From positions 1 to 39,245 of the forward strand of contig JAGQMS010000007.1 in assembly GCA_020428535.1 (NCBI GenBank): a DNA stretch of 39,245 bases, given 5' to 3'. Origin of the DNA: Candidatus Saccharimonadota bacterium (GTDB lineage Bacteria; Patescibacteriota; Saccharimonadia; Saccharimonadales; JAGQMS01). The notes beneath the pieces are model-generated. The model was not told the origin of the DNA and searched no databases. It saw only the letters and a list, made by a program, of their open reading frames with translations. This document shows positions 5,606 to 36,340 of this stretch, in pieces; position 1 is the stretch's first letter; the number at the start of each line of letters is the position of its first letter. The position numbers and the translations under genes are program-made.

Positions 5606-6238
5606 CTATTTTACGCCAAAATATTGACCATAGTAGTACCAAAAATGTGTAATTATGAGTCCTGCCGCGATTAGAATAATAATAATCCATATACCGATGA
5701 TATTTTTCCTTTTAATAGAAGCAATTGGCATTTTTTGGAATCTATTTGGTAAGAGTTTTTGATCATAGACCCAAGCATATAATGCGGTAGTAATCGTGAG
5801 TCCACTTATCCATACCGTACTACAAAATATACATAGCGCTTGGATGACGTAGACTGATTGATAGAAGAGCCATGCTACTCCTAGCATAAATGCAGCCATA
5901 CAAGCCAAGAAAAGTCGCCAGAACCATCTCTTATACTTAGCACCAGCTAACATACTAACTCCAACTGCGATGATAGGAGCAAATATGGCTATTCCCATAA
6001 GATCATTCGGTATGCTAGCGACAAGGGTTGATTGATTGCTATCGATAACTTTGCCACATGAATACACTGGGTTAAGATCACAAACAAGTTTATTCTCAGG
6101 ATGCTGTAATAAACCAACTTTCTCGATGTTAATCATCATTGAGGCGCCCACAGCAAGTAACCCGAATACTATAAGTATTATCGGGAATGATCTTTCAATC
6201 CTGAGCCATTTCTTGAGAATTGCAAAATTATTATTCAT
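5606..6238 (-). CDS. Vitamin K epoxide reductase (VKOR) family membrane protein
   Basis: This 210-aa polytopic membrane protein is a bacterial VKOR homologue. The family passes electrons from newly folded secreted proteins to quinone and so drives disulfide formation outside the membrane. About four to five hydrophobic segments are visible. The active-site CxxC is C136-I-F-C139 at a membrane boundary, and the shuttle cysteines C53 and C61 (CDLNPVYSC) lie in the first extracytoplasmic loop. NDLMGI follows, as in other family members. No thioredoxin-like domain is fused and no DsbA-like partner is in this window. A -10 TATACT ends 7 nt before the ATG, so the mRNA may be leaderless. Cysteine pairs in the giant kelch protein are plausible substrates; that link is inference. 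Confidence 0.9.
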   Translation of the reverse strand: MNNNFAILKKWLRIERSFPIILIVFGLLAVGASMMINIEKVGLLQHPENKLVCDLNPVYSCGKVIDSNQSTLVASIPNDLMGIAIFAPIIAVGVSMLAGAKYKRWFWRLFLACMAAFMLGVAWLFYQSVYVIQALCIFCSTVWISGLTITTALYAWVYDQKLLPNRFQKMPIASIKRKNIIGIWIIIILIAAGLIITHFWYYYGQYFGVK

Positions 6239-25335: not shown

Positions 25336-28300
25336 CTAGTTAGAGTTGTGCGCTTCCTCAAGTGTAACCCTGAATCGATTGATTGTTACGCCTGTACCGC
25401 TATTTGTGTTTGAATCAGAACATACTGTGTAATATACGACGCTGGTAGTAGCTGGCTCATCTAGGAAGATAACTGTGCTCGAGGCCGTTTCGGGGTTGTT
25501 GGTTGTGAAAGTGCTAACTCTTGCACCTACAACTGTGCCTGAACCACATGTTGGTACTGAGCCGATTCCTCTTTCTACCCGAACCTGTACTGATCTGTCT
25601 GCAGTTGTAGTTGACGACACCTCCATAACTACACTTCCGGTAATAGCTTTAGTAGAAGATGAAGGAGTGATGTTCGGGTACGAATTATTGTTTTCTACTG
25701 CCGTATCCCAGTAATTAGTTGTATTGTTTGTGCTAACAACCGCATCCGAAGTACTGTCAATGAAGCTTCTTACTTGTCGTGTGCCGATGCAGTCAACCCA
25801 TGCACTACTCTCATAACATCTAAACTTTCCAAGGGTTGAATTATAATACATTGCTCCGTTATATCCGGTTGGGTCCGTGCCAGCATTTGATGAATCTAGT
25901 ACAAACACAATTCCTGTACTATCCGTCGTTGAGGAGCCGACTTGGACAATATTGCCACTGGTATCGACATTAAAGACCGGATTGCTACTTCCATCTTGAA
26001 TACTTAATGCGCTAGTTGATGTTGACATAATTGTTAACGCACCGCCGTTTGAAACTGTAAACACTCCTGTGCCACTTCTTTCGAGAGCTAATAAGTTTCC
26101 GCTAGCGCCAGTCTTATTTATATATATGGAGTTATTTGTAGATGAATCTACTTGTGCTGAACCTGGGCCGATTAATAAGAAACCACAACTTATGCTCTGT
26201 GATAGACATAGCGTCCCATCACCATCTGGTAGATAGATTGTTCTGTTGGTAGTTGCCGCACCAGCTACTACAGTTATGCTGTTTCCGTTGCTACTATTAT
26301 TAAATACGATCTGGCCGTTAGCACTTGACGCCGTGCCAATAACTAAGTGCCCACTGGCGTCAAATCCAGCCATAGCAACTCCAGAACTATTTTGTACTTC
26401 GAACAAATTAGCAATTTGTGTTGATGTACCTTGGATAATCAAACTCTTATTATTATCTCCCCCTGAATAAATTGATACTTCTGCGGCAGCATCCGTAGTT
26501 GATGCCGTATTTACAGTAACAAGGTTTGTGGCAGTTGCAGTTCCAACTGCAACCCAGTGATTTAGAGAATCAATTACAAATGTATTACTATCAAAATTCA
26601 AACTATTGTTTAGTGTCACACTACTACTATTTATAGTGAATGGATCCGAAGATGCATTTCCAACTGTAATTCCACCATTTGCTAATATTTCGCCACTGAA
26701 TGTTGCTTGGTTACTAGTTGTCAGCGATAGCGCTGTTGAACCACCGGTTATTAGATATAGATCATAGGAATCAGTTGTTCCCAGTACACCATTCGCCCCA
26801 AAAGCGTTACCGTTTTGATCAAAAGATGTACCCGATCCGCCTCCAGTCGGTGTAGTTGTGAGTTCAGCAATTGTCCATGAGCTACCAGCGACTGCATATT
26901 GAGCACCGGAAGAACCAGCCTGTGAACAGAGAACTTCATAATACTCATTTGCTGAGGTGGTTTGCACATATACTGATGAGCTATTAGTTGTATAGGCATC
27001 TGTTGTATTTCTAGCATACGAATAAGAACCGCTTGGCGAATTATAGGTGGTGCCATTCATCCTAACCTGACAGAAAGTAGTATTTCTACTTGCCGATTGA
27101 TTTGCGCCACTAATGTTATAACTAATCTTATACCAACCAGCAGCATCGAGATATACCCTTGTGTTGTTGGTTACATTATCATGCGTAAAGCCACTATCCT
27201 TCTTCGTTTCTGAATCCCAAGGTACAGCCGTAGGTGTTGCCGTGTTTAGATCTGTGCCACCTGTTGCGTCATAAGCTTGAATCAATAGTATTGAAAGTGG
27301 GCCACCGCTACCAGCTCCACCGCTTGTTAATGAGACCCACTGAATTCCATCATAACCTTCAAAGTCAGTGCCCGACCAGCGAATTGCACCTGCGGTTGTG
27401 CTGGTTGAATTGCCCAAAATGGCTCCGGAGCTAAAAGTCGTCAGACCTGTAAATGTTTGCCCACCATTTAATAATGCTACATTGCTAGAAAGATTGCTGT
27501 CGCTAATGGTTCCTGTAATTGCCGTCCCGTCAATATTAGTCAGGCCCGAACCATTACCGTTAAAACCAGTTGCCGTAATTGCACCCTCAACACTCAAATT
27601 CGCTACATAACCTCCGTCACTATTAACTAATGATAGTGTGGTATCACCGGTAGCATCAATAAGGTCTACACCCGTTGTGCCTGCGCCAGTCCGTTTTAAT
27701 GTCGATCCGATCAGATTAATTGTGCCGCTTGCCGAATTAAGAGTTAAGTCACCCGTCCCACCACTCTGAACAGTGATCGCTCCACTCCCGGAGATTGTAC
27801 TCGCGCCACTTATAGCTCCTACATTTGTTATGCCACCACTGCTATTGTTAAAACCACCGTTGTTAATCAGGCCACCTGCTGATATCGTAACTCCGTTGTT
27901 CACTGTTAGTGAATGCGATAACGTAAAGTCGCCTGCCGAACTGAAAGATGCGGCAGTAACACCATTTGTGATGATTGTGAGTCCGTTTGCATCGGTTGTA
28001 CCAAGTATAGCCGTTCCACCAAATGCGTTACCGCCGTTTTGGAAATATGATGATGCGCCACCAGAAGAATATTCTACTGTCCAATAAACTGTGAAGTCGT
28101 TTGTACCAGCTGGTGTCAATCCTGAAGTATCAAATGCAATTCCGATTGTATCGCCGGCTAAGAATGTGACCGTGCCACTATCGATGTTCTCTGCTTTCTG
28201 ACGGTTATTAGTTGAGTTCATAGTACAGGCGCCAGCCCCCACAGAAACACCGTTAACGCGCCACCTCAAATTCAACGTACCACCAGTTATATTTGCATTA

Positions 28301-29349
28301 TTCTTGATCAAACATGCCCTGAAACTACCGTCCGAAGGTGCAGTAAACCCGGTTACGCCACGTGTGTTTGAAACTGCAGTTGCGCTAGTGAAAATAAGTG
28401 TTTCTACCGCTAATCCTGTCGTAGTACCAGCAACGTTTGCAACACCAGCAGTATAGGTGCTCGTAAATGCATTTACGGTGTTACCCCCACCCGAGGTTAG
28501 AGAAGCCCAACCCGTACCATTGTAAACTTCCAGATCAGTACCGCTCCAACGTATGGTCCCAGCCGTGGTAGATGAGCTATTGCCAACAGTAACCCCTGAG
28601 CCGAATACGGCAGAACCCGTTTTATCAAGCGTCAAAACACTTATGCCATTACCTTTGAGATCAAGAATCTGTCCTGTTCCTGTTTGATTGATGCTAAGGG
28701 CGGCAGTAGTGCTATTGGCTGTCTGTGTTGAAGTTGGGCTAATTTGCGCCAGGTTATCCGCATTAAAGCTCGAAGTACCTGCGGCGTTCAGCAATAGCGA
28801 GGTTTTGAATGAAAATGGCACACCGCTAAGCTTCATTCTGCCAGTAGTAGAATTGACCATCTCGGTGTCCCAAGAGGGTGTTCCGGTACCACCAACGCGC
28901 ATGGTTATGTAGAGATCCTGGCTCCATGGAATGCTTGCACCAAACGGAGTTATCGAACCAAGATTAACTGAGATATAGCCATTGACGACTCTGACAGTGT
29001 TAGCGCCAGTTCTTGTCTCTACCCACCAACAATCATCAGTAGAAGAATTTAAGGAACAAACACCCTGGGCACTAGCTCCTGCAGCAGTAGTGTCATAGAT
29101 TTTGAATTCGACGTTATAGTCACCGTCTGGTACTAACGCTCCGGTGCTTTGTAAAATTCGAGCTTGGAAGTTGATCGTCGAGTTTGTGGCTGCCTGAGCT
29201 GAGCCAGTCGAGATGAATAACATCGTCAAGGTGGCTAGTAGAGTAAAGATTGCGCCGGATATCAATGTCGCACAATAACGCAAGAAATGCCCTCTTCCCT
29301 CAGATTCGGGGCATGACCATGCCTTTGCGATGTATCGCCTAAATATCAC
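25336..29349 (-). CDS. Giant secreted surface protein with duplicated modules (1337 aa)
   Basis: An unusually long signal peptide (residues 1-53: a 26-residue polar start, then a hydrophobic core ending SAQA, with cleavage likely after A53) directs export. The mature protein starts TNSTINFQARILQSTGALVPDGDYNVEFKIYDT, an N-terminal beta domain of a type seen in CPR surface proteins. The rest is Ser/Thr/Gly/Asn-rich, almost free of Lys, and beta-strand rich. A module containing IRWSGTDLEVYNGTGWASLTSGG and NGGNAFG..ILGTTD occurs twice about 1.2 kb apart. Near the C-terminus MYYNSTLGKFRCYESSAWVDC is followed by a final jelly-roll-like domain of about 150 aa. No sortase motif or C-terminal anchor is seen. 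The start is GTG with no ribosome-binding site; an in-frame TAA lies 6 codons upstream. Likely an adhesin or surface-layer component. Confidence 0.85.
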   Translation of the reverse strand: MIFRRYIAKAWSCPESEGRGHFLRYCATLISGAIFTLLATLTMLFISTGSAQAATNSTINFQARILQSTGALVPDGDYNVEFKIYDTTAAGASAQGVCSLNSSTDDCWWVETRTGANTVRVVNGYISVNLGSITPFGASIPWSQDLYITMRVGGTGTPSWDTEMVNSTTGRMKLSGVPFSFKTSLLLNAAGTSSFNADNLAQISPTSTQTANSTTAALSINQTGTGQILDLKGNGISVLTLDKTGSAVFGSGVTVGNSSSTTAGTIRWSGTDLEVYNGTGWASLTSGGGNTVNAFTSTYTAGVANVAGTTTGLAVETLIFTSATAVSNTRGVTGFTAPSDGSFRACLIKNNANITGGTLNLRWRVNGVSVGAGACTMNSTNNRQKAENIDSGTVTFLAGDTIGIAFDTSGLTPAGTNDFTVYWTVEYSSGGASSYFQNGGNAFGGTAILGTTDANGLTIITNGVTAASFSSAGDFTLSHSLTVNNGVTISAGGLINNGGFNNSSGGITNVGAISGASTISGSGAITVQSGGTGDLTLNSASGTINLIGSTLKRTGAGTTGVDLIDATGDTTLSLVNSDGGYVANLSVEGAITATGFNGNGSGLTNIDGTAITGTISDSNLSSNVALLNGGQTFTGLTTFSSGAILGNSTSTTAGAIRWSGTDFEGYDGIQWVSLTSGGAGSGGPLSILLIQAYDATGGTDLNTATPTAVPWDSETKKDSGFTHDNVTNNTRVYLDAAGWYKISYNISGANQSASRNTTFCQVRMNGTTYNSPSGSYSYARNTTDAYTTNSSSVYVQTTSANEYYEVLCSQAGSSGAQYAVAGSSWTIAELTTTPTGGGSGTSFDQNGNAFGANGVLGTTDSYDLYLITGGSTALSLTTSNQATFSGEILANGGITVGNASSDPFTINSSSVTLNNSLNFDSNTFVIDSLNHWVAVGTATATNLVTVNTASTTDAAAEVSIYSGGDNNKSLIIQGTSTQIANLFEVQNSSGVAMAGFDASGHLVIGTASSANGQIVFNNSSNGNSITVVAGAATTNRTIYLPDGDGTLCLSQSISCGFLLIGPGSAQVDSSTNNSIYINKTGASGNLLALERSGTGVFTVSNGGALTIMSTSTSALSIQDGSSNPVFNVDTSGNIVQVGSSTTDSTGIVFVLDSSNAGTDPTGYNGAMYYNSTLGKFRCYESSAWVDCIGTRQVRSFIDSTSDAVVSTNNTTNYWDTAVENNNSYPNITPSSSTKAITGSVVMEVSSTTTADRSVQVRVERGIGSVPTCGSGTVVGARVSTFTTNNPETASSTVIFLDEPATTSVVYYTVCSDSNTNSGTGVTINRFRVTLEEAHNSN
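26758..27417 (-). repeat. Duplicated module, copy 2, in the 1337-aa protein
   Basis: It encodes GNSTSTTAGAIRWSGTDF, then YDGIQWVSLTSGG, and further on DQNGNAFGANGVLGTTD. The same order of motifs occurs in copy 1. The copies are diverged at DNA level, so this is an old duplication. Confidence 0.65.
27980..28587 (-). repeat. Duplicated module, copy 1, in the 1337-aa protein
   Basis: It encodes GNSSSTTAGTIRWSGTDL, then YNGTGWASLTSGG, and further on QNGGNAFGGTAILGTTD. The matching glycine codons of the two copies are 1170 nt apart (28584 and 27414). Confidence 0.65.
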
Positions 29350-29575: not shown

Positions 29576-30313
29576 CTACCTTAGGTTTAGGATATACCCC
29601 GTCAATAGATTCGTATCTACTGCCCGGTCTGCCTTGATGAAAATTAATAGATCAGATTTTATGAACAGTAGGGTTTGTACTCCAGATTTTTCGTTGACAC
29701 CTGCAAAGATCTTTTGTTGATCAATTTGTGTTAGAAGTTTGAGATAATTGCTGTCAGCAAATTTTTGGAGGTTATTATCCTGATCCACTTTAAAATAATC
29801 TGGCAGACTTTGCTCAGTAACCTCTATTGCGGTTTCACCAATTTTACTTTTAAAAGTATATAGCGCATCACCTGAGGGGGCCTTCCTTTCAACACCGCTA
29901 GATTGCTCTACACCGCTTGGAGTAATCACCTTGAAAGACGGTTCGACAGAAGTTGACCCCTTCTGTCTATCGCTAGTGCTATAATCTGTACTAACACCAG
30001 CTACCTGGTTAATGTCTTTACTTACGTTATTATTGGTAAGATGCCCAACTTGCCAATAAATAAATCCAGTGTTTAGGGCTACTGCACCTACGATTATCAT
30101 TTTAACTGATGTTGGGGTCCTTGAAATACCATTCAGAATGGCTTGTCGATTCTTTTTTGCTTTTTCTGATAGTCTTTTCCGCCAAACAGGCTCACTTGGG
30201 AGCCTTTCAAAGAGTGTCTGATTATCAAAGAGTTCAGCCATCTTTGACTCTAGATCTCCATCCGAGTCCCTCGTAGCATGAGATCCCCTTCTACCCCAAT
30301 TCTTCAAATCCAT
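29576..30313 (-). CDS. Single-pass membrane protein of unknown function, downstream of the kelch gene
   Basis: From the ATG at 30313 this is 245 aa (a GTG 18 bases upstream is also in frame). Residues 1-69 are charged and cytoplasmic (with WRKRLSEKAKKNRQAIL just before the membrane), a hydrophobic segment spans about 70-90, and about 150 residues lie outside. The outer part has a Ser/Val-rich linker (SSGVERKAPSGD), then a compact C-terminal domain, YTFKSKIGETAIEVTEQSLPDYF onward, ending with two hydrophobic strands (LLFIKSDLLIFIKAD). I do not recognise a family. It follows the giant kelch gene by 48 nt on the same strand and may be its partner. A TATACT box ends 6 nt before ATG, within an inverted repeat. 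Confidence 0.7.
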   Translation of the reverse strand: MDLKNWGRRGSHATRDSDGDLESKMAELFDNQTLFERLPSEPVWRKRLSEKAKKNRQAILNGISRTPTSVKMIIVGAVALNTGFIYWQVGHLTNNNVSKDINQVAGVSTDYSTSDRQKGSTSVEPSFKVITPSGVEQSSGVERKAPSGDALYTFKSKIGETAIEVTEQSLPDYFKVDQDNNLQKFADSNYLKLLTQIDQQKIFAGVNEKSGVQTLLFIKSDLLIFIKADRAVDTNLLTGYILNLR

Positions 30314-30316
30314 AAT

Positions 30317-30349
30317 GATAGTATAACTCACATAAATAAAGATACTATC
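30317..30349 (-). repeat. Inverted repeat at the start of the small membrane-protein gene
   Basis: GATAGTAT (30317-30324) and ATACTATC (30342-30349) are exact inverted copies around a 17-nt spacer. It lies in the 48-nt gap between the kelch gene and the 245-aa gene. One arm overlaps a TATACT box. It could be an operator or an mRNA hairpin; no U-run follows. Confidence 0.6.
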
Positions 30350-30361
30350 TGCCGGGGTCTG

Positions 30362-33300
30362 CTACGGTAGAGGACAGTCGGTATCTACGGTCTGTCTGCA
30401 GGGTGTATCCAGCGGCTGAAGCTCTCCACCAGTAAACGTTTTGCCATGGCGCAATCGTTTACTGGGGTCGGAAGTGAAGAATAGTGATAGGTCCGATATC
30501 GTTGGCCCACGATTCACGTCTTCAGGGTAGCCATAGGTTTGAGAAGCGTCAATCGAAATTGAGAAATAGTAGTATCTGGCACAGTTAATGTTACCGCCAG
30601 AGGAGTTTTTCGGAGTATAGACATTAACATCGCCTAAGTACGTGTCGCCGAAGTTAGTTTCTTGGCCCCATGTTGTCATGGTAGCCATAGTAGAAGAAGT
30701 ACCACAATCTTCATTTGGGTTCACAAGTGTGTCGAGATCATGCATCGAACTATACTTTACTTGCCATCGTGCGCCGATAGAGTTATCGATACCATTCATT
30801 AACCAGGATGTTGGAAATACATCTGTGTCGGTATCTATCATTCGAGAGTATTTGGCCACTTGTGGTTGAGATTTTAGAGTTGAATAGTACATTCGATCAC
30901 CTGAGGAAACGAAACTACTACATCCTCCAGCGACAAGGAACATCCTACCGCTATTGTATACGACCGCCGCGCCATAACGATCACCGCTGTACCGCACATT
31001 GGTTTCGTACCATTCGCCCACACCGGTAGGGTTATTGCCATCGGAAATGATAGTGTTCGCACTAATCGGGGCAATTAGCACATTAGGCTTGCAGGTAGTT
31101 GAGGCGGTTCGGCCACCGACAAGGTATATATATCCATTGGCAGCAAAGCCGTCAGCATCCTTAATTGGATCTGTTAGGCTAGTTGAATATGTCCAGCTCC
31201 CCGCCGAGCCGTCTTGGATTGTGTAAATAGTGCCCGCCGTCACCGTTTTACTAGCACTTACTGTCATGGAGGTACCACTCGCAACGGATGATATTGTTGC
31301 ACGTGAGCCATCGGGATATTGCACAACACTACCGACTTGGCTCGAAGTCCAAGAGGTACCAGAGCCAGTAACTGTAGTTCCTGATTGAGATATGGTGCCC
31401 GTTTTGTACCCAATAGTTGCAAATTGCGTGTCAGAAAGATAGTTTGTGCCATCATAGCCGCCAAGTATATAAAGGTTATTTGCATATGCCACGAGCGTAT
31501 GACCAGCTCTTGCAACATTAAAGGCCGTGGTTGACTGCCAGTTGGAGGCTATATCACCACCACTTGACAGCTTTGGGCTAACGTAGACAGTGGTTTGTGC
31601 AGTGCCGCTAGCATTGAAGCCTCCAGTGACATATATCCTGTTCTCCCATACTGCTGCACCGAACTGAGTTCTCGCTTGAGCACCACTCCCGGTGTCGCCA
31701 ACACCTTTTGTTGCCCCGCTCCCTGCCCAGGTCGGGTTGCCACTAGATAATGAAGAGGTGTAATAAACAGTGCTCACCGCGGTCGTAGATGCCGCACCTG
31801 TCTGGCCACCAACATAGTAAAGGGTGCCGCCAGCATTGAGAAGCTTCCCCCACGCTCGCGCTGCCGGGAGAGCTCCACCAGAGGACCAGCTACCAACAGT
31901 TCCATACGCGTCGATGGCCGCATAATATGTGTTGGTTGATAAAGTAGTACAAGCCATATCCGTGCATCCGCCGGCATAATAAATATAGCCATTCATCACA
32001 GTCGCACTTCCACCTACCCGATCAACACCCAAGGTATTACCCGCCGTAGCATTATTTACGGCACCACTTTCGTTGTTATATATTTGGAAAGTTTGAATGT
32101 TGTCCGTAGGTCCAGTAGGATTGACGCAGCTTGTCGGGGCATTTCCACTAATACACCCACCAATCACATAGGCATAGGAGTTTGATATAGCCAAAGACAA
32201 GCCCCACCGCTGCTGGATACTAACTGAGGACACTACGAAGTCAGCGATACTTCCATTAGTAACGTCAATCTTGGCAAATTCGATGTCGGCAAGAACACCT
32301 CCACCGCCAGAACTACCATCATAACCACCGACAATATATAGATATCCATTATACCCATACGCCGCTCCACGACGACGACCATAAAAAGTTAGACTCGTAG
32401 ACTCGTAGAACGTCGTACCGCTAACAGCCGTGACATTATTGCTATTATCAAACTTCGCGTAGCGAGTTGTTTTTAGGTCGCTCAATCCTGGAGCGAGTCC
32501 ACCTATAAGATATATATAGTTGGCATACACTGCTCCCGCCATGGCACCAAGACCAGTCCCAGAGGCAGAGTTCCCAGCTCCGTCAGTAGCTGTTCCGATT
32601 AATGTCTGACCCGATGTACTGCAACTTGAGCTGACAACAACATTTGAGGTGTCAATATTACATTTATAAACATTCTGAGTCATGCTAGTGCAGCTTACGG
32701 TGGTGTTTGAGGTACATCCACCAAAAATATACAGATTCCCAGGGTATGTTCCTGCCGAAGCTGGGTTAGCCCTGGTGTAAGCGAATGCATAAGATACGTT
32801 TGTGGCGCCGATTGTGCCCAAAGTTTTGCTTGACCATGAGCTTATAGTCCCATCAGCCGCCGGAGTTGTGTAATAGACGCTGTTTACGCTTGGCCAACCT
32901 CCAACAAGGTAAATCGTACCGTTGAATGTGGCAGTACCAGAAGAAGCCATATTAGTCGGCAAATTTGTTGAATTAACACAATAAGATGCAGAGTATGATC
33001 CGCTACAAGCAGCCGGCTTTGTCAATGAGCCGTCACTACCTATTGATGTATAAATTATTCCATTCGAAGCGGAACCGCAGTTTGCCACCGTGCAACCTCC
33101 CATGATGTAGAGAAACCCATTCTGGAGCACTGTATTATTGAGAATATTCCCCACCGTCGCTACTCCGGGGAGATCACAACCATATGGAGAACCGCCACTA
33201 CACGGCGCAGTTCCACTTGGCACAGAAGAAGCTACGGTACTGGCTTCCCCCTCAACATTAATTACTCCATAATCAACGTCCAGAACCGTGTCAGTACAAG

Positions 33301-36300
33301 CACCCGAAGAAGAGTCTTGGCTACGACACCCTCCTAGCCTATAAAGTCCGCCCTGCCAGGCAATGAATGTATGGGCGAATCGATCATTTGTCAGCCCCAA
33401 AATGGTATTGAATTCGGAGATACTTCCGTCAGCATTAATGCTTGCAAGCTGCACATCAGTGGCAATTGAAGTGCAATAGCCGGAAGCATTGACTGCCGTG
33501 CAACCACCATTTACATACATATAGCCACCAAAGATCGTGCTAAACACCCCACCTCCGGTCAACCTACCAGATGTTAATAAACTTGAGGTTGCCTTCCATG
33601 GATTCATTGTTCCGTCACTATTAAGCTTTGAATAATCAACTGTCGCTACCGGTGTACCGCTAAATGTCGCATCGCCACCTATGACATATAAAGTATCGTT
33701 GTATATGTGTGCGGTTAGGCCGTAACGGTTGCCACTCGCCGTAGTGCTAAGACCATATGTCCCAGTTGTGGTCCAAGTGGTCAGAGTACCCATCGGGTTT
33801 ATATTAGCCATTTGGACAGTATTAGAACTCAAAACGGTTGTGCTGGCTGATAATCCACCTAAAATATACATTTTGTTGTTGTAGGCAACCGCCCCAAAAT
33901 AACTACGAGCTGTGCTCAGTGCTGTGTCGCTATACCAATATCCAGGAGTCCCTCCTGTCGGGTGCCAAAGTTGAGGCTCGCCGTTCGCGCCAATTTTTGC
34001 AATATAGACACTTGTTTGGGGCGTACCACTACTATTGGAGCCGCCGATAGCATAAAGAAATCCGTTGTAGGCAACCAATGAAAGACCAGTTAGAGCAACC
34101 GGAAGATCGTAGGCAGTATTATTGCACCAACCGCTGCATGCTCCCGTACCTGGGTTTGGGCTATCTATAGCATTAGTCGTGGTGTTGAACTGCGCCCAAT
34201 AAACTTTGTTTGTAATTGAGCCAGGCGTAGTGTATGAGATAACGACTATTCCATTGTCGCCTGCTGTTGCGTTGCCAAATGTTGTCGCCCCCGTCCCTCC
34301 ATCACCCAAGCCACTACGATCACTATCTCCACTATTTCCTGGGGTAACTCCAGTCCCGGAAGTATTTACGTCAGTTCCAGCCACTAAACCGGTAGGGTTA
34401 ATGTATGAACTACCGCCACCGCCACCGCCACCGCTTCGATTGTTTGTTGAGGTAGAGGCACCGCCACCGCCACCATAGTAGCCGCCGCCACCACCACCAC
34501 CAGCAGCACAAGTAGAAGTGAATGTGCCACCCGAACCACCGCCACCGGTTCCACCAGCACCGCCTGTTCCGGCAACGCTAGTTGCGCAAGCAGCAGTCGT
34601 ACCGCCGTTACCACCAGCTTGGCTAGCACCGGTAGCACCACCACCAGTACCAGTACCCCCAGTACCTCCGGCCGATTGAGTACCGCCTAAACCCGGTCCA
34701 CCCGTGCTACCCGCTGTTCCTTGCTCACCTGTTGTGCCACCGCCAGCACCACCGTGGCCTTCCGTGCCTGAAGTGTTCCCTCTTCGCCCACCGCCACCGC
34801 CACCGCCAGCTGCTTCAACTAAATATGTACTACTACGCTGAACAGAAGATGCGCCTCCTCCGTTGCCACCTCTACTATTAGCGGTTGCCTTTGCACCAGC
34901 TGTTCCCACTTTTACGGTCAAACTCTCACCCGGCGTAACGGAGATAACCGCTTTTGCATAGCCACCGCCGCCTCCATCACCACCAACTCCCGTGCTTCCA
35001 CTACCCGAGCCACCACCACCGCCAGCTCCCCATGCTTTGATCGTCAAGGATGTTATGCCTGTAGGCACTGTGTAGGTGTTCGATCCGGCCGTATTGTATG
35101 TAGTTGTAGTAGTAGTTCCCGAGCCAACTCCACCGACTGAATAAATATATCCCCCCGCCACTGCTGTCCCCTGGCCCCATACAGCCGAACTAAGGTTAGA
35201 AGTACTAGACCATGCGTCAATTCTAGCCCCAGTAGTTTGACTTTTCTGTATGAGATCATTAGATACATCAAAATCAGTATTAGTCTCGTTGTTGCCACGC
35301 ATCAACTTCCTTGCAGATTCAATATAGATAGTCGGGTCAATGCTAAGGGGATAGTTAGCGCTTTTTAGTCCACTAACATTAAGGGTCAAAACTGTCCCAT
35401 TCAGCGTGAACCACGCTTTTACGTTCTTTGAGACCGCTGTTTTCTTTAGCTCAACCACATATGGTGCCGGAATTCTAAACAGAAACTCTGTTTTCTTACC
35501 CTGTTGTCTAGCTTTCTCTAAAAGTTGAGCATCTGCATCTGATGCGGTCGTGACATTACCAAGTAGTGCATTTTCGACGCCATAGATTCCTATTGAACCA
35601 TCGGCTTCCAAACGAGGCTCGGTTCCAGATTGCAGATTCATTGCATAAGACATCTCCAGGTTATCGCGACCAGGTTTCTCGTACATAATTATGTCTTCTT
35701 TTATGGAACTAGCCCCCAAAGAATACACTTTGACAGCATTGACCCCAACTAGAGGATAAACAACTCTGTTAGTATCTTTCATTGGTTCACCAAGATTGAA
35801 TTTTGGTGTCAGCGTGATATCCACTTTGCTTACAGGATCGGTCACCGTGACCGAATTGTTTTTTCTCGAACTAGCAAAATATGCCGAGAATTTCGGAACA
35901 TAGTTGTCACCAGACACATCGCTACCTACTTGATAGTCCTTATTGTACTGAAAGCCCCCAGACTGGCTATCGCTTGTAACCAAAGAGTCATAGAGTTTGA
36001 TCGGCGAAGGTATCAGGTTACCGAACTTAGTTATATTGTATTCTGCCACCCTAATGTGCTCTTGATATATCGGATAGAAAATACTGAATATAATCACCAG
36101 TATCATCACTATTGAGATCAGCCGGCTGAGTAATTTGTGCTTCTTCCAGAATGAAATCACCACAAGACGCAACATTTTCAAATTCATTAGAATAAGATCA
36201 GTTGTACCGTTTTCATGCAGGAATTTCTTTTCACTGACAGATAGTTTTGGTAGGGAACATATATTCAAGCGTTTGATACGCCGAAATAGGCCAGAAATTT

Positions 36301-36319
36301 TGTTAGTTTTAACCCTCAT
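30362..36319 (-). CDS. Giant membrane-anchored kelch-repeat surface protein (1985 aa)
   Basis: Residues 1-65 are basic and cytoplasmic, a single membrane segment spans 66-83, and about 1900 residues lie outside. A beta domain (about 90-340, ending YPLSIDPTIYIES) leads into kelch repeats: I count 18 cores of the form hhYhhGG (YIYSVGG, FLYAIGG, MYILGG ... RMFLVAGG), enough for about three six-bladed propellers. A glycine-rich domain of about 290 residues (about 403-695) is inserted after the first core, and a short domain (GTISQSGTTVTGSGTSWTSS onward, about 1638-1700) interrupts a later blade. Many blades carry GGC...C cysteine pairs. The C-terminus has a compact domain ending RLRHGKTFTGGELQPLDTP, then CRQTVDTDCPLP. 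It is the first gene of a pair with a small membrane protein. Likely adhesion or recognition; no enzyme motif is seen. Confidence 0.9.
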   Translation of the reverse strand: MRVKTNKISGLFRRIKRLNICSLPKLSVSEKKFLHENGTTDLILMNLKMLRLVVISFWKKHKLLSRLISIVMILVIIFSIFYPIYQEHIRVAEYNITKFGNLIPSPIKLYDSLVTSDSQSGGFQYNKDYQVGSDVSGDNYVPKFSAYFASSRKNNSVTVTDPVSKVDITLTPKFNLGEPMKDTNRVVYPLVGVNAVKVYSLGASSIKEDIIMYEKPGRDNLEMSYAMNLQSGTEPRLEADGSIGIYGVENALLGNVTTASDADAQLLEKARQQGKKTEFLFRIPAPYVVELKKTAVSKNVKAWFTLNGTVLTLNVSGLKSANYPLSIDPTIYIESARKLMRGNNETNTDFDVSNDLIQKSQTTGARIDAWSSTSNLSSAVWGQGTAVAGGYIYSVGGVGSGTTTTTTYNTAGSNTYTVPTGITSLTIKAWGAGGGGGSGSGSTGVGGDGGGGGYAKAVISVTPGESLTVKVGTAGAKATANSRGGNGGGASSVQRSSTYLVEAAGGGGGGGRRGNTSGTEGHGGAGGGTTGEQGTAGSTGGPGLGGTQSAGGTGGTGTGGGATGASQAGGNGGTTAACATSVAGTGGAGGTGGGGSGGTFTSTCAAGGGGGGGYYGGGGGASTSTNNRSGGGGGGGSSYINPTGLVAGTDVNTSGTGVTPGNSGDSDRSGLGDGGTGATTFGNATAGDNGIVVISYTTPGSITNKVYWAQFNTTTNAIDSPNPGTGACSGWCNNTAYDLPVALTGLSLVAYNGFLYAIGGSNSSGTPQTSVYIAKIGANGEPQLWHPTGGTPGYWYSDTALSTARSYFGAVAYNNKMYILGGLSASTTVLSSNTVQMANINPMGTLTTWTTTGTYGLSTTASGNRYGLTAHIYNDTLYVIGGDATFSGTPVATVDYSKLNSDGTMNPWKATSSLLTSGRLTGGGVFSTIFGGYMYVNGGCTAVNASGYCTSIATDVQLASINADGSISEFNTILGLTNDRFAHTFIAWQGGLYRLGGCRSQDSSSGACTDTVLDVDYGVINVEGEASTVASSVPSGTAPCSGGSPYGCDLPGVATVGNILNNTVLQNGFLYIMGGCTVANCGSASNGIIYTSIGSDGSLTKPAACSGSYSASYCVNSTNLPTNMASSGTATFNGTIYLVGGWPSVNSVYYTTPAADGTISSWSSKTLGTIGATNVSYAFAYTRANPASAGTYPGNLYIFGGCTSNTTVSCTSMTQNVYKCNIDTSNVVVSSSCSTSGQTLIGTATDGAGNSASGTGLGAMAGAVYANYIYLIGGLAPGLSDLKTTRYAKFDNSNNVTAVSGTTFYESTSLTFYGRRRGAAYGYNGYLYIVGGYDGSSGGGGVLADIEFAKIDVTNGSIADFVVSSVSIQQRWGLSLAISNSYAYVIGGCISGNAPTSCVNPTGPTDNIQTFQIYNNESGAVNNATAGNTLGVDRVGGSATVMNGYIYYAGGCTDMACTTLSTNTYYAAIDAYGTVGSWSSGGALPAARAWGKLLNAGGTLYYVGGQTGAASTTAVSTVYYTSSLSSGNPTWAGSGATKGVGDTGSGAQARTQFGAAVWENRIYVTGGFNASGTAQTTVYVSPKLSSGGDIASNWQSTTAFNVARAGHTLVAYANNLYILGGYDGTNYLSDTQFATIGYKTGTISQSGTTVTGSGTSWTSSQVGSVVQYPDGSRATISSVASGTSMTVSASKTVTAGTIYTIQDGSAGSWTYSTSLTDPIKDADGFAANGYIYLVGGRTASTTCKPNVLIAPISANTIISDGNNPTGVGEWYETNVRYSGDRYGAAVVYNSGRMFLVAGGCSSFVSSGDRMYYSTLKSQPQVAKYSRMIDTDTDVFPTSWLMNGIDNSIGARWQVKYSSMHDLDTLVNPNEDCGTSSTMATMTTWGQETNFGDTYLGDVNVYTPKNSSGGNINCARYYYFSISIDASQTYGYPEDVNRGPTISDLSLFFTSDPSKRLRHGKTFTGGELQPLDTPCRQTVDTDCPLP
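31220..31410 (-). other. Small beta domain inserted in a late kelch blade
   Basis: It encodes GTISQSGTTVTGSGTSWTSS, then VGSVVQYPDGSRATISSVAS and GTSMTVSASKTVTAGTIYTI. This pattern resembles small domains in phage tail and surface proteins. It separates the core YILGGYDGT from the next blade (GYIYLVGG). Confidence 0.55.
34210..35110 (-). repeat. Glycine-rich low-complexity domain nested in the kelch protein
   Basis: It starts NTYTVPTGITSLTIKAWGAGG, continues with runs of Gly mixed with Ser, Ala and Thr, and ends DNGIVVISYTTPG. This is the layout of glycine-rich fibre domains. The DNA is locally GC-rich with GGN repeats on the coding strand. Kelch sequence resumes directly after it (KVYWAQFNTTTN). 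Confidence 0.75.
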
Positions 36320-36331
36320 TCTTTGTAGATA

Positions 36332-36340
36332 ATTATACCA
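36332..36340 (-). promoter_or_regulatory. Extended -10 promoter of the giant kelch gene
   Basis: TGG-TATAAT on the minus strand is a consensus extended -10 ending 12 nt before the ATG. No -35 or Shine-Dalgarno is clear. The rest of the 70-nt gap (36320-36389) shows nothing else. Confidence 0.5.

Follow-up and report, generated by a model that had tools for sequence, protein, structure and literature searches.

The window, i.e., the whole 39,245-nt stretch of DNA that was analyzed, carries on its minus strand a gene for an N-terminally anchored, predicted tri-propeller kelch protein of 1985 aa (30362..36319), which was recognized by its open reading frame, Pfam matches, core count and hydropathy. 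The coordinates 30362–36319 had been claimed in an earlier note on this DNA and were borne out; the strand, which that note did not give, is minus, with the ATG at 36319 and the stop at 30362. The frame contains no internal stop, and the plus-strand reading of the same interval is stop-rich. Because the N-terminal length differs among the kelch orthologs and a TATAAT lies ~13 nt 5′ of the annotated ATG (window ~36331–36340, minus strand), the start codon is uncertain, and either it or the start of the transcript may not be where it is annotated. The source genome comprises 783 kb in 42 contigs and is 87% complete, and the source organism is a tiny, probably parasitic Saccharibacterium.

The kelch gene has the gene of a fibre-like surface protein, FIB883, as its upstream partner, of which the C-terminal part is present, cut by the contig end (36390..39245, minus strand), and that of a 251-aa membrane-anchored protein as its downstream partner (29576..30331, minus strand). 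In ~22 related loci, too, a fibre-like gene sits immediately 5′ of the kelch gene on the same strand, and relatives of the small protein lie 3′ of the kelch gene in ~11 loci, giving a conserved order of fibre-like, kelch and small membrane protein genes. The fibre-like relatives encode 950–2770 aa and carry CBM_4_9, Beta_helix or Peptidase_S74 domains. ParA/ParB genes occur nearby in the window and in several relatives; adjoining them in the window is a gene for a 1337-aa secreted fibre-like protein (25336–29349, minus strand), a relative of which (L042:18036–23363) has a Peptidase_S74 self-cleaving chaperone domain. At another locus (L035:101–4553), four secreted proteins are encoded 5′ of the fibre gene, one of them weakly WxL-interacting-protein-like, and genes of similar size precede the fibre gene in several relatives. 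Two tandem fibre–kelch pairs were observed in one genome (L079/L080 of G032), with a Laminin_G_3 insert in the second kelch copy.

Eighteen hhYhhGG cores, exactly the number read in the earlier note, were located at residues 391, 754, 816, 876, 933, 991, 1069, 1135, 1195, 1268, 1326, 1382, 1445, 1499, 1561, 1615, 1730 and 1792, while residue shuffles (n = 2000, glycine-rich stretch removed) averaged 0.46 cores and never exceeded 4. As the core pattern is tuned to the kelch family itself, the independent test was the Pfam search, in which Kelch_1 (6.1e-22, 77.2 bits vs. a cut-off of 20.1), Kelch_6 (2.5e-14, 53.1 bits vs. 25.3) and Kelch_KLHDC2_KLHL20_DRC7 (1.5e-18) all matched above their cut-offs; an NCBIfam profile search of the protein returned no matches. 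Judged from these profiles and the uninterrupted frame, this is a kelch beta-propeller protein encoded as a single chain. Enzymes occur among bacterial kelch propellers, so that the protein might instead be a surface enzyme, such as a NanM- or galactose-oxidase-type sugar epimerase or oxidase, or a carbohydrate-degrading protein. However, no enzyme family gave a meaningful score in the Pfam and NCBIfam family-level searches at E ≤ 0.1, in agreement with the previous claim that an enzyme motif is absent, and only a slim chance is left to this explanation.

The arrangement of the 18 blades was evaluated with two AlphaFold models, one of residues 786–1985 (18-sequence alignment, pLDDT 65.7, pTM 0.44) and the other of residues 330–1529 (17-sequence alignment, pLDDT 69.5, pTM 0.48); both alignments were shallow and the overall confidence moderate. 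Leaving aside a very long flagellar chain that aligned at 36–38 Å, the best PDB matches of the models were six-bladed kelch domains (e.g., Keap1, KLHL12 and the designed SAKe6), the best superpositions having target-normalized TM-scores of 0.7–0.79 at 2.9–3.6 Å; superpositions spanning blades of more than one ring fitted poorly. These scores from moderate-confidence models support closed rings. Low-confidence linkers were shared by both models at residues ~1018–1047, after blade 6, and ~1414–1433, after blade 12, and further low-confidence stretches fell in inserts and loops. Based on the breaks after blades 6 and 12, the models favour 6 + 6 + 6 as the best partition, in which the three six-bladed propellers suggested previously would be the likely arrangement. 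Propeller 1 would comprise blades 1–6 (residues ~366–1022, cores 391–991; 33254..35224, minus strand) with a glycine-rich module within it, propeller 2 blades 7–12 (residues ~1050–1412, cores 1069–1382; 32084..33172, minus strand), the part of highest confidence in the models, and propeller 3 blades 13–18 (residues ~1434–1811, cores 1445–1792; 30887..32020, minus strand), covered by the model of residues 786–1985. The spacing from blade 6 to blade 7 is the longest in the chain, inserts excepted. A different split of the 18 blades, e.g., two seven-bladed propellers plus a remainder, could be argued from the blade-to-blade similarity, which peaks only weakly at an offset of 6 (35 vs. ~31) and higher at 13; given the positions of the model breaks and the good fit onto six-bladed domains, it is considered improbable.

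Close relatives (E ≤ 1e-30) were found in 57 of the 393 sampled genomes of the order, representing 38 of 156 genera, whereas a phylum-wide sample contained relatives only in the order and in one other member of the class. The gene is thus present in related genomes, and the expectation in the earlier note that such proteins are unusual in small-genome bacteria was not borne out, as they are common within the order and a second 18-blade copy exists in the same genome (G000, contig C7, L005:1990–7527). That copy is without a fibre gene directly upstream and has a different blade-1 module. The 11 distinct full-length copies first aligned all keep 18 blades in register (the alignment has 12 rows, of which L010 and L042 are the same protein). 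Divergent members with 28–45% identity showed 15–18 blades in the profile search, GG motifs marking most of the blades that it missed, and a blade number fixed over such a distance argues that it matters structurally. The relatives with GTDB names are Candidatus Saccharibacteria, apparently mostly environmental. A 10,914-aa frame in G158 (L088/L089) was rejected as a giant relative, being an artefact of a long masked N run over a relative, and a viral origin was likewise dismissed after a close-relative scan of viral contigs gave no relative.

Hydropathy placed a single membrane helix, positive side first, at residues ~63–81 (36077..36133, minus strand), and an N-terminal membrane helix was found in all full-length orthologs. 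The net charge amounts to +12 on the N-terminal side of the helix and to 0 over the first 30 residues beyond it, which fits the previously claimed anchor with an inside-facing N-terminus and is consistent with a cytoplasm-facing N-terminus and an exported protein body. Neither an LPxTG signal nor a C-terminal helix is present in the 1985-aa protein, which lacks these hallmarks of a sortase-anchored adhesin, although sortases are encoded in the genome. The helix is followed by a putative extracellular domain of ~245 residues (residues ~86–330; 35330..36064, minus strand) that is conserved across orthologs, with DUF7948 as its best match (E 0.002, 3/11 members). At the other end lies a C-terminal beta domain (30404..30886, minus strand), for which the AlphaFold prediction was unreliable and profile search returned no known family, and which ortholog conservation marks as the most conserved part of the protein; its end motif, RLxHG(K/R)TFTGGxxQPxDTP, is near-invariant. 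Comparison of the N- and C-terminal domains with solved structures gave no match with a convincing E-value, and a TcdB_toxin_midN match in the terminal-domain search (E 0.038, 2/11 members) was treated as noise. Along the ortholog alignment, the mean entropy declines steadily from 2.0 at the anchor to 0.66 in the C-terminal domain, and this fall in variability suggests a constant partner at the C-terminal end.

Two inserts that were absent from the earlier description interrupt the propellers. A glycine-rich module of ~300 aa lies in blade 1 between strands 2 and 3 (residues ~404–698; 34226..35110, minus strand) and is partly well folded in the AlphaFold model; it resembles Gly_rich_2 (PF21722, E 1.1e-4), its score of 22.8 bits falling just under the 24.3-bit cut-off for membership, and that cut-off was passed at the same site in L035 (35.4 bits) and L049 (30.2 bits). 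Most orthologs have a glycine-rich module at the blade-1 site; the paralog L005 and L042 carry another kind of beta domain there, and in L091 and L093 the site is empty. The other insert, a ~65-aa beta-rich module in blade 16 between strands 3 and 4 (residues ~1636–1702; 31214..31414, minus strand), is missing from most orthologs, and a module resembling it is placed between blades 7 and 8 in L096. Further, L047 and L049 have a second glycine-rich module, placed in blade 15, L080 has a lectin-like domain past blade 12 (Laminin_G_3, 4e-22), and L081 has an insert of ~430 aa at blade 14.

Twenty cysteines of the propeller region were present in 12/12 aligned rows as close pairs, spaced by ≤13 residues except for 1743/1800; an extra pair, 1452/1457, was found in 10/12 rows, and the C-terminal domain adds another. 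The conservation of these ~11 pairs suggests that they form disulfides. A VKOR-family disulfide-forming membrane protein (PF07884, 3e-30) is encoded in the window at 5606–6238 on the minus strand. The most variable positions were +8 to +16 after each core, i.e., the loop between strands 2 and 3, and −16/−13 before it, around the start of strand 1, and the turns on the opposite propeller face were conserved. This pattern is consistent with the variable loops being a candidate ligand-binding face, but structural constraint by itself may account for the conservation of the opposite-face turns.

Taken together, we lean towards reading the protein as a Saccharibacteria-specific, outward-facing tri-propeller scaffold or adhesin with exchangeable binding modules and a C-terminal domain that docks to a partner. 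The N-terminus would remain in the cytoplasmic membrane and the remainder be exported, where the small beta domain, the three closed six-bladed propellers and the C-terminal beta domain would form a rod held by the putative disulfides. The propellers would serve as a rigid binding scaffold, from which the variable loops and the exchangeable modules (glycine-rich, lectin-like and others) would touch their ligands, for which glycans or proteins on neighbouring or host cells are the likeliest candidates, and the invariant C-terminal domain would dock to a conserved partner, perhaps the upstream fibre-like protein. Host recognition, for which the earlier note proposed such a protein as a strong candidate, is a plausible but putative role; attachment to other cells would suit the way Saccharibacteria live. 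The rise in conservation toward the C-terminus is unlike a simple fast-evolving receptor-binding tip, although the loops and modules do vary; and as ~85% of the sampled genomes of the order are without a close relative, it is not a general attachment device. The same rise also bears on the alternative that the protein is mainly a structure of the cell's own envelope, a scaffold that builds a coat or appendage with the fibre-like and small membrane proteins and has no direct host contact. Conservation that is strongest in the C-terminal domain and tail motif is what a fixed partner would lead one to expect, and the conserved order with fibre-like genes, joined in relatives by a WxL-interacting-protein-like gene, points in the same direction. 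However, exchangeable lectin-like and glycine-rich loop modules suggest changing ligands, and the patchy presence of the gene also speaks against it, so that we regard the envelope structure as rather unlikely.

The outward-facing scaffold or adhesin could be part of something larger: a so far undescribed cell-contact apparatus of environmental Saccharibacteria, in which the tri-propeller scaffold with its swappable ligand modules, the fibre-like protein and the small membrane protein would recognize host bacteria, and module exchange would set the host range. We put this forward tentatively, as a possibility with considerable doubt attached. Little is known of the means by which Saccharibacteria, like other Patescibacteria, select their host cells and stay attached to them (PMC12206443), and a lineage-specific predicted tri-propeller, apparently rich in disulfides, whose blade number is fixed while its modules are exchanged, is a concrete candidate for host attachment. 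The two copies in one genome and the conserved gene order point to partners worth testing, and even if the protein does not bind hosts, it would show a reduced genome building a large modular surface scaffold.

Kelch propellers and glycine-rich and lectin-like domains are already known. In the open-access literature searched, which is incomplete, kelch combined with Saccharibacteria, Patescibacteria or the candidate phyla radiation returned only unrelated papers, kelch repeat adhesins returned none, and no description was found of a conserved saccharibacterial tri-propeller of 18 blades that exchanges its loop modules and keeps its gene neighbourhood. Another reading would make the protein a type IV pilus tip adhesin, like PilX2 or PilY1. 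PilX2, a propeller-bearing pilin, is required for the function of the host-tethering pilus in the cultivated Saccharibacterium Nanosynbacter lyticus TM7x; a saccharibacterial surface propeller has already been proposed as an adhesin, as has that of PilY1 in bacteria (PMC12206443), and pilus-type ATPases are encoded in the genome studied here. But PilX2, which by the searches made here is no relative of the kelch protein, carries a single seven-bladed RCC1 propeller on a pilus, whereas the window protein matched kelch families only and its neighbours are fibre-like proteins and ParA/ParB, with no pilus gene recognized in the window; a pilus tip adhesin of this type therefore has just a small chance of being the right explanation.

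Like the bacterial fibrillar adhesins (PMC8286594), the outward-facing scaffold proposed here is a long multidomain surface protein with a possible stalk and adhesive modules, but it is anchored N-terminally and lacks an LPXTG-type C-terminal anchor; kelch, propellers and Patescibacteria go unmentioned in that paper's main text (PMC8286594). In a viral library, the best fold matches were kelch proteins from large phages, among them PhiPA3 F8SJJ2, yet these are different proteins. Compared with free-standing Gly_rich_2 (PF21722), the glycine-rich module here is inserted in a propeller loop. Keap1, KLHL12, KLHL17 and the designed SAKe6 share the motif, the Pfam families and the fold with the window protein; in contrast to the Keap1-type kelch domains with their BTB/ubiquitin-ligase context, it would combine three such domains in tandem in one bacterial membrane-anchored chain, which also has inserted modules and cysteines paired as if for disulfides.
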